Assembly: GCF_030908215.1 (NCBI RefSeq)
Contig: NZ_JAVFJK010000004.1
Location: forward strand, 96,921-160,920
Direction of reading: 5' to 3'
Length of the DNA: 64,000 nucleotides
Origin: Sinomonas sp. ASV486
GTDB taxonomy: Bacteria; Actinomycetota; Actinomycetes; Actinomycetales; Micrococcaceae
Of the stretch, positions 1,068 through 9,761 are shown in pieces. Positions within the stretch are counted from its first letter, which is position 1. The number at the start of each line of letters is the position of its first letter. Made by a program: the position numbers and the translations under genes. Under the pieces are notes generated by a model. That model saw only the letters and a program-made list of their open reading frames with translations, made no database searches and was not told where the DNA came from.

Positions 1068-1628
1068 TCAACTCGCGCGGGTCAGCAGGTCCGCTGCCGA
1101 GACGACCTCGCACATGGGCGAGAGCATCTGCATGAGTGCGAGCGCCTGCTCGTGGGCCTCGTCGGTCGCCCCGGCGCACGCGTCACGGACCACTGTGACG
1201 AAGCGACCGGCATCGGCGGCAGACAGAGCCGTCGACAGGACACAGCAGTCGGTGGCCACTCCGGCGAGGATCATCCTCTGCCCGATCGGGACCTGCGAGG
1301 CCAGTTCCGGACCCCATTTGCTGAAGGTCGGCGCATCGATGACACGGGCGCCTTGCGGGAGCTCCGAGACGAAGTCCCACTCGGGCGCCTCCGCTGGGAG
1401 GCGTGTGTCCGGCCACCGGTCGTAGTATGCCGACCACGAGCCTTCCTCATCGCCGTCGCGGACGAAGCGCGTGTAGACGATCGGGGTCGCCAGCGATTCT
1501 TCCAACGAGACGATGGCCTTGGCCGCCTGGTCGAAGCGCGGCACGTGCCAGACAGTCGTGTCGCGGAAGACCCGCTGCATGTCGATCACCACGAGTGTGC
1601 CCGCCGGACCTGCGCCTGCCGTGCTCAC
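1068..1628 (-). CDS. Isochorismatase-fold cysteine amidohydrolase
   Basis: A 186-residue cysteine hydrolase of the isochorismatase superfamily, which includes nicotinamidase, maleamate amidase and RutB. These enzymes mostly cut C-N bonds of small amides or ureido acids. The catalytic triad is visible as Asp16 (VVIDMQ), Lys104 (TFSKWG) and Cys129 (GVATDCCV). The start is GTG, overlapping the permease stop by four bases (GTGA), so the two are translationally coupled; longer upstream frames would run through the permease gene. As the last gene of the leftward arm of a catabolic cluster with a flavin monooxygenase, it is a good candidate for releasing ammonia from a ring-opened amide. The substrate is inferred from context only. 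Confidence 0.88.
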   Translation of the reverse strand: MSTAGAGPAGTLVVIDMQRVFRDTTVWHVPRFDQAAKAIVSLEESLATPIVYTRFVRDGDEEGSWSAYYDRWPDTRLPAEAPEWDFVSELPQGARVIDAPTFSKWGPELASQVPIGQRMILAGVATDCCVLSTALSAADAGRFVTVVRDACAGATDEAHEQALALMQMLSPMCEVVSAADLLTRAS

Positions 1629-3058
1629 AGGGTCTGCGCCTGAGGGCTGCCGTCGAGGAGCTCGTGGCCCGAGAGGCGGCGGAGGCGGTAGGTGGCGAAG
1701 TAGACCAGTGCCGCCACAGCTGCGCCGACGTAGTAGGAGAGGTCGCCGATCTGGGGGAACGCCGCAGCGATCGGCCCTGTGTAGATCGAGGACATCCAGA
1801 AGGGGGAGGAGAGGACGACGCCCGCAGCCCAGGCGACGAAGCCCCATTCGACCTTGCGCTTCTTGTCGAAGAGCTCACGCAGGCCGCGGTCGGTGCGCCG
1901 GCCACCGAAGAGATAATCGCACACGAGGACGGCAACGTAGGGGGCGATGCAGTAGGCAGTCAGGTTGAGGAAGGCCGTGAAGCCCTCATTGAACCCATTC
2001 TGGCCCCAGAGGGCCACAAGGTAGGAGGCCACGCAGATCACGACGACGCCGATGTGACGCTTGACCGGGATGCCCATGGTCTGGATTGAGATCGCGCCAC
2101 CGTAGACGTTCAGGAAGTTCTGCGTGAACGAGGACAGGGCGACGATGCCGAGGCCGATCGGGGCCCAAGGGCCCATGAGCTCCTTGAGCGCGCCGATGCT
2201 GTCCGTCGCAGTCGCGGCCGATCCAAGGACCGTGCCGAGTACGCCCATCCAGACCATCGTCACGGAGTTGCCGAGCATGGTTGCCCACCCTGCTCCGCGC
2301 CGGTTGCCCGGCGTGTTCGGGAGATAACGGGAGTAGTCGGAGGCGAACGGCATCCACGCGACGATGAACGAGAAGAACCAGCCGAAGAAGACGATCCAGC
2401 CGCCCACGCCGTTGAAGCCCTCCGCTGCGGTGTTGACCTCGTTGACGATGTGGCCGTTGGCGGCCGCGACGATGGTGATGAAGACGAAGCCAATGACGAG
2501 CACGAACGAGAGGATCCGCTGGAGGAAATGGATCAGGTTGTACCCGATCACCGCGACAGCTAGCTGGATGCCCATCAGGATCAGCGACGACACCCAGAAG
2601 GGGATGTCGGTCAGCAGGGCGATGGCCTGCCCGCCGAGGATGACCGTCACGGCAGCCCAGCCAATGCCAGCGAACACGTTGACGTAGGCGACGGGGAAGA
2701 GGTTACCCACGAAGCCCAAGGGCCCTCGACCCTGCATCTGCTGGGGTACGCCAAGACGCACGCCCATGGCCGAGAGATAGCCCATCCCCGCGGAGGAGAT
2801 GACGCCCGCGAGGACGATCGCGAGCACGGCTGCCCAGAACGGGAGCCCGAAGTACGTCGCACTGAAACCCAGGACGACGATGGGGAAGTTCATGCCGGCG
2901 GCAAACCAGAGGAAGAACTGGGAGCGAGGCCTTCCATGACGCTCGACGTCGGGGATGTGTTCGACGCCGTACGGCTCAATCTTGGTGAGGCTGTCGCGGT
3001 AGCCGCGGTCTTCGGCGATGCTGTCTTCGCTGACTGCACGCATGGTGTCAGGGCTCAT
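1625..3058 (-). CDS. NCS1-family nucleobase/heterocycle permease
   Basis: A 477-residue polytopic membrane protein (about 12 transmembrane segments) of the nucleobase:cation symporter-1 family, which takes up cytosine, purines, allantoin, hydantoins or pyridoxine-like compounds. Family features include an N-terminal charged segment with IEPYGVEHIP (about residues 27-36), a glycine-rich QGRGPLGFVGN loop and the central FASDYSRYLP motif. ATG 3058 follows CCTTAGGAC, a good ribosome site. It sits between the flavin reductase fusion and the amidase and is the likely importer of the compound degraded by this cluster. The family assignment is firm and points to an N-heterocycle; the exact ligand cannot be read from sequence. 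Confidence 0.9.
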   Translation of the reverse strand: MSPDTMRAVSEDSIAEDRGYRDSLTKIEPYGVEHIPDVERHGRPRSQFFLWFAAGMNFPIVVLGFSATYFGLPFWAAVLAIVLAGVISSAGMGYLSAMGVRLGVPQQMQGRGPLGFVGNLFPVAYVNVFAGIGWAAVTVILGGQAIALLTDIPFWVSSLILMGIQLAVAVIGYNLIHFLQRILSFVLVIGFVFITIVAAANGHIVNEVNTAAEGFNGVGGWIVFFGWFFSFIVAWMPFASDYSRYLPNTPGNRRGAGWATMLGNSVTMVWMGVLGTVLGSAATATDSIGALKELMGPWAPIGLGIVALSSFTQNFLNVYGGAISIQTMGIPVKRHIGVVVICVASYLVALWGQNGFNEGFTAFLNLTAYCIAPYVAVLVCDYLFGGRRTDRGLRELFDKKRKVEWGFVAWAAGVVLSSPFWMSSIYTGPIAAAFPQIGDLSYYVGAAVAALVYFATYRLRRLSGHELLDGSPQAQTL

Positions 3059-3077
3059 GATTGTCCTAAGGTTGGAA

Positions 3078-3092
3078 GCGCACATTGTGCGC
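3078..3092. promoter_or_regulatory. 15-bp palindrome upstream of NCS1 permease
   Basis: GCGCACA-T-TGTGCGC is a perfect inverted repeat with one central base, 20 bp upstream of the permease start, in the 101-bp gap after the flavin-reductase gene. It could be an operator or a small mRNA hairpin tuning permease expression. Confidence 0.45.
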
Positions 3093-3159
3093 TGCTTTCT
3101 GAGCAGTTTCGGCTGGGGTGGCCATGTTCCCCTGCAACGGTGCTGGCCACCTCGGCTTT

Positions 3160-8447: not shown

Positions 8448-8459
8448 AAGGTCACACCC

Positions 8460-8666
8460 ATGCCACTCATCGACGTATCCATCGCCCGCGGGCGCACCCC
8501 AGAGGAACTGCGCGCGTTCATCGACGCGCTCCACCAGGCGGCAGAGAGCACCGTGGGTGCACTCCCCGAGAACACCACTGTCATCGTCCGCGAGATCGAG
8601 CATGAGCACTGGTCCCGCGGCAACCAGACCATCGCCGAACGCGCCACCGCTGCTGGGCAGCTCTAG
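8460..8666 (+). CDS. 4-oxalocrotonate tautomerase family enzyme
   Basis: A 68-residue protein of the tautomerase superfamily, which uses the N-terminal proline as general base after removal of Met (MPLIDVSIARGR; Pro1). Length and the beta-alpha-beta pattern match 4-oxalocrotonate tautomerase monomers that assemble to hexamers. AAAGGT precedes ATG 8460, 12 bp after the aldehyde dehydrogenase. It would ketonise an enol intermediate such as a 2-hydroxymuconate-like or oxo-acid product of ring opening, which fits the neighbouring dehydrogenase and hydrolase. Confidence 0.88.
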   Translation: MPLIDVSIARGRTPEELRAFIDALHQAAESTVGALPENTTVIVREIEHEHWSRGNQTIAERATAAGQL

Positions 8667-8681
8667 AAAAAGGAGTCACTG

Positions 8682-9761
8682 ATGCGCTTCTCCCTCTTCG
8701 TCCACATGGAACGCTGGGACGAGTCCGTCTCGCACCGCGAGTGCTTCGAGAATCTCACGGAACTCGCGCTCATCGCCGAGGCGGGCGGCTTCAGCACCGT
8801 CTGGATCGGCGAGCACCACTCCATGGAGTACACGATCTCCCCGAGCCCGCTCCCGCAGCTCGCATACCTCGCCGCGCGCACGTCCCGCATCCGCCTCGGT
8901 GCAGGCACGATCATCGCACCCTTCTGGAACCCGCTCCGCGCGGCTGGCGAGACCGCGCTGCTCGACGTCATCAGCAACGGCCGCATGGAGGTGGGCCTCG
9001 CACGCGGCGCCTACCAGTTCGAGTTCGACCGCCTCATGGGCGGCATGTCCGCCGTCGACGGCGGCAAGCACCTCCGCGAGCTTGTACCGGCCGTACGTGC
9101 GCTCTGGGAGGGCGACTACGCGCACGACGGCGAGATCTGGCAGTTCCCCACCTCGACGAGCGTGCCCAAGCCGATCCAGAAGCCCACCCCTCCGATCTGG
9201 ATCGCCGCCCGCGACATCTCCTCGCATGAGTTCGCGGTCGAGAACGGCTGCAACGTCATGGTGACTCCGCTCATGAAGGGCGACGAGGAGGTCGAGGACC
9301 TCGCGCGGAAGTTCGACTCTGCCATCGAGAAGAACCGCTCAGCGAACCCCGACGCCGAGCGCCCGGATCTCATGGTGCTACGCCACACCCATGTCCACTC
9401 GGCCGACGATCCCGAGGGCTGGCGGCGCCCCGCCGAGGGCATCCAGAAGTACTACAGGACGTTCGATGCCTGGTTCGGGAACAAGACCGCGCCCGTGAAC
9501 GGCTTCCTCAAGCCCAGCCCCGTTGAGAAGTTCGCCGATCGCCCGGAGTTCCAGCCCGAATCGCTCCATAAGACGGCCATGATCGGAACGCCTGCGGAGA
9601 TCATCGAACGGCTGCGCCACTACGAGGCCCTCGGCGTCACCGAATTCAGCATCTGGTCGGACAACAGCCTCACCCACGAGGAGAAAAAGCGCTCGCTCGA
9701 GCTCTTCATCGAGCAGGTGGCACCGGCGTTCCAGGAGCAGCCTGCGGCCGCGGCACGCTGA
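8682..9761 (+). CDS. Luciferase-like (LLM) flavin-dependent monooxygenase
   Basis: A 359-residue two-component flavin monooxygenase of the bacterial luciferase superfamily, the group that contains RutA, PyrA and alkanal monooxygenases. Seen are a TIM-barrel start [12 protein letters not shown], the EHH signature ([10 protein letters not shown], about residues 46-55), [15 protein letters not shown] and [15 protein letters not shown] (flavin/phosphate region). It needs reduced FMN, presumably from the SnoaL/flavin-reductase fusion encoded on the other arm. AAAAAGGAGTC precedes the ATG. As the last gene of the rightward operon, it is the best candidate for the oxygenative opening or hydroxylation step. 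Confidence 0.9.

Follow-up and report, generated by a model that had tools for sequence, protein, structure and literature searches.

A probable actinobacterial version of the trigonelline catabolic pathway in Sinomonas sp. ASV486

Trigonelline (N-methylnicotinate) is a plant pyridine betaine and a plant and marine osmolyte. Its catabolic (tgn) pathway in Acinetobacter baylyi, as reportedly described by Perchat in 2018, employs the oxygenase TgnA, the reductase TgnB, the dehydrogenase TgnC, the hydrolase TgnD, the succinate semialdehyde dehydrogenase (SSADH) TgnE and the conserved protein TgnF, and its ring-opening product is said to be N-methylformamido-methylene hydroxybutyrolactone. Here we analysed a 64,000-nucleotide stretch of Sinomonas sp. 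ASV486 (contig NZ_JAVFJK010000004.1, positions 96,921 to 160,920; hereafter the window). Judged from homology and gene context, a divergent ten-gene cluster in it is likely to be the actinobacterial version of this pathway, with trigonelline as the likeliest substrate; N-methylpyridinium chemistry in general is somewhat more probable still.

A passage of PMC8269262 describes the opening of the trigonelline ring by TgnA/TgnB. TgnE and TgnF of A. baylyi are named in a part of PMC7913881, according to which TgnF stimulates TgnE and has a homologue in the DUF1185-family protein HcdD. An initial annotation of the window had placed the DUF1185 pair outside the Rut and Pyr pathways; a view of DUF1185 as foreign to known pathways is contradicted by this treatment of TgnF as a DUF1185-family homologue. 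A reference title in PMC12093977 concerns Rhizobium meliloti trigonelline catabolism genes on pSym, and a literature search for actinobacterial trigonelline genes gave none among the matches listed.

Gene layout and proteobacterial counterparts

The GntR-centred divergent unit of ten genes was confirmed at its place in the window, with every family named in the initial annotation scoring above its Pfam gathering threshold. The minus arm carries a SnoaL-flavin reductase fusion, an NCS1 permease and an isochorismatase-type hydrolase. The plus arm starts with a GntR/FCD regulator, and also carries two DUF1185 genes (D1 and D2), an alpha/beta hydrolase, an aldehyde dehydrogenase (ALDH), a tautomerase and a luciferase-like flavin monooxygenase (LLM).

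1068-1628, minus strand: isochorismatase-type cysteine amidase (iso; PF00857, 104.5 bits)
1625-3058 (alternative start 3085), minus strand: NCS1 permease, probable substrate importer (PF02133, 114.3 bits)
3160-4110, minus strand: SnoaL domain fused to a flavin reductase, TgnB-like flavin mononucleotide (FMN) reductase (PF07366, PF01613)
4204-4213, no strand: putative GntR/FCD operator TTGTATGCAA (motif TTG[CT]AT[AG]CAA)
4228-4923, plus strand: GntR/FCD regulator (PF00392, PF07729)
5013-5684, plus strand: DUF1185 paralogue D1, TgnF-like, RIGDR motif kept (PF06684, 188.9 bits)
5681-6232, plus strand: DUF1185 paralogue D2 (PF06684, 199.5 bits; PDB 2qtp, 143.9 bits)
6229-6969, plus strand: alpha/beta hydrolase, TgnD-like ring-fragment hydrolase (PF12697)
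6966-8447, plus strand: ALDH, TgnC-like (PF00171, 567.5 bits)
8460-8666, plus strand: 4-oxalocrotonate-type tautomerase with a Met-Pro start (PF01361, 47.3 bits)
8682-9761, plus strand: LLM, TgnA-like ring-opening oxygenase (PF00296, 196.6 bits)

Stop/start overlaps had been claimed throughout each arm. Overlaps of 4 bp are present at four of the eight within-arm junctions (iso/NCS1, D1/D2, D2/hydrolase and hydrolase/ALDH), and the remaining four are gaps of 101, 89, 12 and 15 bases.

A tblastn search of plasmid sequences with the LLM returned 364 matching records. Identity was below 60% in 363, and the main sources were Rhizobium (174) and Sinorhizobium (84), with six records from Acinetobacter. 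Five plasmid stretches were examined, from Acinetobacter, Rhizobium, Leisingera, Gemmobacter and Arthrobacter; the first, an A. baumannii record, is unannotated, and its genes were taken from open reading frames (ORFs). The Arthrobacter stretch carries a window-type cluster. The other four share an operon in which GntR is followed by one DUF1185 gene, an alpha/beta hydrolase, a reductase, an LLM and an ALDH. In the Acinetobacter operon the ALDH is followed by an NCS1 permease and then an SSADH, the Rhizobium operon has a NUDIX gene after GntR with ABC transporter genes and an SSADH downstream, and the Gemmobacter operon has ABC transporter genes downstream. We take the Acinetobacter-type set to be the tgn set of the A. 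baylyi trigonelline cluster.

Compared with the Acinetobacter operon, the window proteins show identities of 49.7% (LLM), 45.8% (ALDH), 46.2% (D1), 41.5% (D2), 41.0% (reductase), 25.9% (NCS1) and 25.0% (hydrolase). The LLM is 49.7-50.7% identical over about 350 residues to the LLMs of all four proteobacterial operons, the reductase (PF01613, 135.1 bits) is 38-42% identical to its partner reductases, and D1 and D2 are 41-50% identical to the single DUF1185 proteins. The ALDH shares 46% identity with the ALDH at the TgnC position of the Acinetobacter operon versus 33% with its SSADH, and groups in the tree with the C-position enzymes (support 100/99), apart from the SSADHs. Long-branch warnings were raised for L127 in the LLM tree, for several SSADH rows in the ALDH tree, and for D1 versus D2 in the DUF1185 tree. 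The alpha/beta hydrolase occupies the same neighbourhood as those of the tgn-type operons, with a low identity of 25-38%. It also matched PDB 3kxp, which we take to be a hydrolase of vitamin B6 decay, with 32.7 bits, not as its top match.

Conservation, transporters and methylamine context

Named genomes were scanned by LLM, and the best 80 of 398 relatives comprised 59 actinobacterial and 21 Pseudomonas loci. Genes were counted per locus by tblastn at identity thresholds set in the script, and a gene that was not counted may reflect the threshold or the end of the fetched stretch and not a true absence. Besides the LLM, present in all 59 actinobacterial loci by selection, ALDH and hydrolase were found in 59 each, D1 and D2 in 58 each, GntR and reductase in 57 each and the tautomerase in 50. 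Less frequent were NCS1 (32), a BCCT transporter (29), the amidase (19), SSADH (10), type III glutamine synthetase (GS-III; 9), MgsA (9), NUDIX (8) and MgsC (6). The cluster is thus widely conserved, and the cohesion of its genes across the actinobacterial loci is far beyond chance.

Among 148 relatives, the LLM was found in 13, window genome included, with 68-100% identity, and DUF1185 in 16. Both occurred in 12 genomes, LLM only in 1, DUF1185 only in 4 and neither in 131 (p = 1.6e-13, with genomes not independent). Three of 346 phylum-wide genomes carried the LLM, counting the window genome and one relative with a lone LLM. D1 and D2 are the only two DUF1185 genes of the window genome, which has no close LLM paralogue, the next being 29% identical over part of its length. 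Among the fetched loci, the nearest cluster is that of Sinomonas cellulolyticus, with 79-95% identity per gene.

Some loci showed further features. In locus L019 (genome G021) the LLM match stands alone and covers only residues 38-352, at 86-87% identity; the 20 kb fetched around it contained nothing else of the cluster, and we read it as a probable remnant or stray copy. Near 11.0 kb in seven mycobacterial loci (L045, L057, L060, L061, L069, L078 and L080), a small protein with a median of 124 residues is encoded directly 3' of the LLM; neither Pfam (1e-3) nor NCBIfam (1e-10) gave a match for the L078 copy. On the Arthrobacter plasmid (L108:1881-2830) and in L030 (near 1.9-2.8 kb), the cluster is adjoined by genes for riboflavin kinase and a NUDIX protein, which may link the supply of FMN to the oxygenase that depends on it.

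The Pseudomonas LLMs are 75-77% identical to that of the window. Their loci contain a reductase without SnoaL in 17 of 21 cases and an Acinetobacter-type NCS1 permease in 16 of 21. In three Pseudomonas genomes, tgn-type DUF1185, hydrolase and ALDH genes lie on the LLM contig about 15-23 kb away. These partners show identities of 58% (DUF1185) to the Acinetobacter protein, 54-55% (ALDH) to the C-position enzyme and, in one genome, 70% (SSADH). In trees of selected rows, the Pseudomonas ALDH (98/96) and DUF1185 (98/94) fall inside the proteobacterial operon clade, and the LLMs of the four proteobacterial operons group together (100/100) to the exclusion of the Pseudomonas LLM. Because Pseudomonas combines such an LLM with tgn-type ALDH and DUF1185, an LLM of the window type seems to function in a tgn-type pathway there. 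In addition, three Pseudomonas loci (L079, L082 and L090) encode a distant isochorismatase, 28-30% identical to that of the window, between the LLM and a second NCS1 gene. In two others (L105:543-5558 and L102), sarcosine-oxidase-like subunits below NCBIfam cut-offs lie beside NCS1 and LLM and could be N-methylglutamate dehydrogenase.

A recurring 559-residue ORF beside the reductase was identified as a BCCT transporter (scanned copy: PF02028, 600.5 bits; TIGR00842 above cut-off). BCCT was found in 29 and NCS1 in 32 of the 59 actinobacterial loci, both in 4 and neither in 2 (Fisher p = 2e-10, with loci not independent). The betaine-type BCCT stands in for NCS1 in sister clusters, near-exclusively.

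The transporter exchange bears on the reading in the initial annotation, in which an uncharged N-heterocycle (pyrimidine, lactam or pyridine) is opened by Rut/Pyr-like logic with release of ammonia. Rut does share enzyme classes with the cluster, namely an LLM, a reductase, an isochorismatase-type amidase, a hydrolase and a nucleobase-type permease. Nevertheless, sister clusters carry a betaine-type BCCT in place of the NCS1, and the amidase is not part of the core, because 40 of the 59 loci gave no match to it at 40% identity. No NCBIfam Rut model reached its cut-off: the reductase scored 64 of 254.75 bits against RutF and the hydrolase 34.7 of 238.5 bits against RutD, RutB was not among the four NCBIfam matches of the amidase, and RutA was neither among 25 listed of the 28 NCBIfam matches of the LLM nor named among its 26 PDB matches. 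Membership of the Rut family was rejected on these models, and we consider an uncharged substrate very unlikely. Import of an N-heterocycle, ring opening with FMNH2 and O2, hydrolysis and oxidation of a semialdehyde to a central acid, all proposed in the same annotation, fit the gene set and its relatives.

Genes of methylamine assimilation were found in some loci. In 11 of the 80 fetched loci (9 of the 59 actinobacterial ones and 2 of the 21 from Pseudomonas), GS-III occurred together with MgsA, and in some with MgsC too; these loci belong to Arthrobacter, Streptomyces and Pseudomonas, and the genes stand at differing positions. A section of PMC6237917 assigns GMAS to the type III GS family, and GMAS/MgsABC constitute the N-methylglutamate route for methylamine (passages of PMC6237917 and PMC5023230). 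Two strains with loci in our set, Arthrobacter sp. MA-N2 and Mycobacterium sp. 141 (L033 and L055, matched by strain name), are described as users of methylated amines in a part of PMC5023230. Given these genes and the BCCT transporters, release of ammonia is less likely than release of methylamine. They likewise speak against a non-methylated pyridine carboxylate such as nicotinate as substrate, with ammonia as product; the same enzyme logic would work on it, and the maleamate amidase NicF of nicotinate degradation is among the Foldseek matches of the amidase, yet we hold this substrate to be slightly less probable even than an uncharged heterocycle.

Ten of the 59 fetched actinobacterial loci include an SSADH at least 43% identical to that of the Arthrobacter plasmid. 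The window genome encodes an SSADH outside the cluster that is 82% identical to this cluster-linked plasmid enzyme. A copper amine oxidase domain (486.6 bits), presumably of the family of the Arthrobacter methylamine oxidase, is encoded there too, and such an enzyme could replace the GS-III route in this genome.

Several points weigh against the assignment to trigonelline. The hydrolase is just 25% identical to its Acinetobacter counterpart, and the tautomerase, the SnoaL half and the amidase had no counterpart in the four proteobacterial stretches (tblastn, 1e-4); the Gemmobacter stretch has an annotated cysteine hydrolase at its far edge. The fork linking the Pseudomonas LLM to the actinobacterial LLMs has no firm placement in the tree. 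GS-III above cut-off is not enriched genome-wide (2 of 13 LLM-bearing relatives versus 9 of 135, p = 0.25) and does not occur in the window genome; 4 of 12 Pseudomonas genomes searched have it. A TgnE-type SSADH is absent from the window cluster itself, and no SSADH of the window genome reaches the TIGR01780 cut-off, the best scoring 558.9 of 646.35 bits. Finally, our equation of the reference operon with tgn is partly provisional; with this proviso a homologous neighbourhood of known substrate has largely been found, and the initial suggestion of an undescribed route loses ground.

Actinobacterial features and proposed pathway

By sequence comparison, the actinobacterial clusters are distinguished by the DUF1185 pair, the SnoaL partner, the tautomerase, the NCS1-tied amidase and the existence of clusters with a different LLM. 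D1 and D2 form two separate clades (each 100/99), both also present in the distant actinobacterium L127, and their PF06684 scores far exceed the threshold of 27. The RIGDR motif of the single proteobacterial DUF1185, RIGNR in Pseudomonas, is kept in D1, not in D2, and the core residues E116, E118, H119, H125, R169 and H171 are invariant in ten sequences. A role for DUF1185 in amino-acid biosynthesis, argued in a section of PMC2954203 from fold and context only, was considered and rejected.

The SnoaL domain adjoins the reductase in 63 of 86 rows (a set including the window, L108, L127 and L162-164). Of these, 27 have both in one frame and come mostly from Micrococcales, with two from Streptomyces (L077 and L091); the other 36 have them in different frames. 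The reductase occurs without SnoaL in 17 rows, all Pseudomonas, and neither was found in six. The structure model of the fusion has a mean predicted local distance difference test (pLDDT) of 56, with most of the reductase half below 50. Three proteobacterial reductases (L106:8066-8998, L107:8069-9004 and L109:8078-9004) have about 150 C-terminal residues lacking a Pfam match, where the window has the N-terminal SnoaL instead.

Three loci found via DUF1185 carry otherwise equal clusters in which the window LLM is replaced by LLM2, 27.6% identical and encoded between GntR and D1 (L162:11362-12480, L163:10108-11241 and L164:10707-11825). LLM2 lies far apart in the LLM tree. Across 108 loci, a few of them duplicated under two identifiers, LLM or LLM2 matched in 102 and both in none; plasmid records gave no LLM2 relatives at 1e-50. 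Since the NCS1 of L162 is 90% identical to that of the window, LLM2 may serve the same substrate as the window LLM.

The exchange also shows that the oxygenase, and perhaps the substrate, can change, which bears on whether the substrate is another N-methylpyridinium compound (homarine, N-methylisonicotinate or 1-methylnicotinamide) handled by the same chemistry with methylamine as product. BCCT and the methylamine context suit any pyridine betaine, and the amidase, restricted to NCS1 loci (19 of 32 versus 0 of 27 others), has a nicotinamidase as its top profile match in the PDB. On the other side, the window-type LLM is common to Pseudomonas genomes whose other parts are tgn-type, and according to a passage of PMC8269262, steric reasons make TgnA/TgnB chemistry on homarine unlikely. 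We regard such a substrate as improbable, though less so than a non-methylated one, and trigonelline as preferred. The amidase residues D16, K104 and C129, invariant in 13 sequences, presumably form its catalytic triad. Its structure model has a pLDDT of 87.4, and its sequence, profile and Foldseek matches mix nicotinamidase, biuret hydrolase and maleamate amidase.

Based on the gene families, the homologous operon and the conserved context, we propose a pathway for trigonelline of which every chemical step is deduced from homology and context. The NCS1 permease would import the pyridine betaine, the reductase domain would supply FMNH2, and the LLM would open the pyridinium ring with O2. The ALDH would oxidise the aldehyde form of the ring-opening product, and the alpha/beta hydrolase would split the resulting acid into succinate semialdehyde, methylamine, formate and CO2. 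Oxidation of the semialdehyde by an SSADH supplied from elsewhere in the genome would be assisted by the DUF1185 pair, as proposed for TgnF. As guesses, opening or isomerisation of the lactone is probably the task of the tautomerase and SnoaL, the amidase may generate the substrate from an imported amide (1-methylnicotinamide, for example), and GntR might control both arms from the putative operator at 4204. With the window counted, 14 of 25 divergent reductase/GntR intergenic regions carry the operator motif, which was picked after the window was seen, against 0.03 expected. A more speculative and rather doubtful extension is that actinobacterial pyridine-betaine pathways are modular, with importer (BCCT/NCS1) and oxygenase (LLM/LLM2) swapped around an unchanging core made up of the DUF1185 pair, the hydrolase, the ALDH and the tautomerase, with D1 and D2 forming a mixed catalytic complex and NCS1 with the amidase feeding amides such as 1-methylnicotinamide.

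If the trigonelline assignment is true, a proteobacterial pathway would extend to actinobacteria of the soil, among them Arthrobacter, Streptomyces and Mycobacterium, and a substrate would be given to genes annotated by class only (LLM oxidoreductase, 'amino acid synthesis family protein'). The paired DUF1185 system allows the role of TgnF/DUF1185 to be probed one paralogue at a time, and the LLM/LLM2 exchange is a natural experiment on substrate specificity. Elsewhere in the window, isocitrate lyase and malate synthase genes of the glyoxylate bypass adjoin at 22644-25908, with an XRE-type regulator beside them at 21134-22630 (all assigned by eye); this region is ordinary. Rfam gave no match at gathering scores in window positions 1-12000.

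Comparison with known systems

HcdD of 7-hydroxycoumarin degradation in Pseudomonas mandelii is also a DUF1185 protein in a catabolic operon, of a different pathway, and its authors could not show a stimulating effect, as stated in a part of PMC7913881. The window cluster is similar to Rut in enzyme classes (LLM, reductase, isochorismatase, alpha/beta hydrolase and permease), whereas no protein of the RutC or RutE class is among its ten genes, and ALDH, tautomerase and DUF1185 are extra. The Pyr cluster of Arthrobacter presumably combines ring opening by an LLM and a reductase with a semialdehyde dehydrogenase, as in the window; this likeness is drawn from gene functions, and the context of the window points to an N-methylated, charged substrate. 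Closest is tgn of A. baylyi ADP1, as represented by the presumed tgn-type operons, with homologous LLM, flavin reductase, ALDH and DUF1185 and an alpha/beta hydrolase of low identity, in a partly kept order. The window differs from it in having two DUF1185 paralogues, SnoaL before the reductase, a tautomerase and an amidase in addition, a different gene order and a cluster that lacks an SSADH, while the NCS1 permease of the tgn-type operon in the A. baumannii record is homologous to its own.

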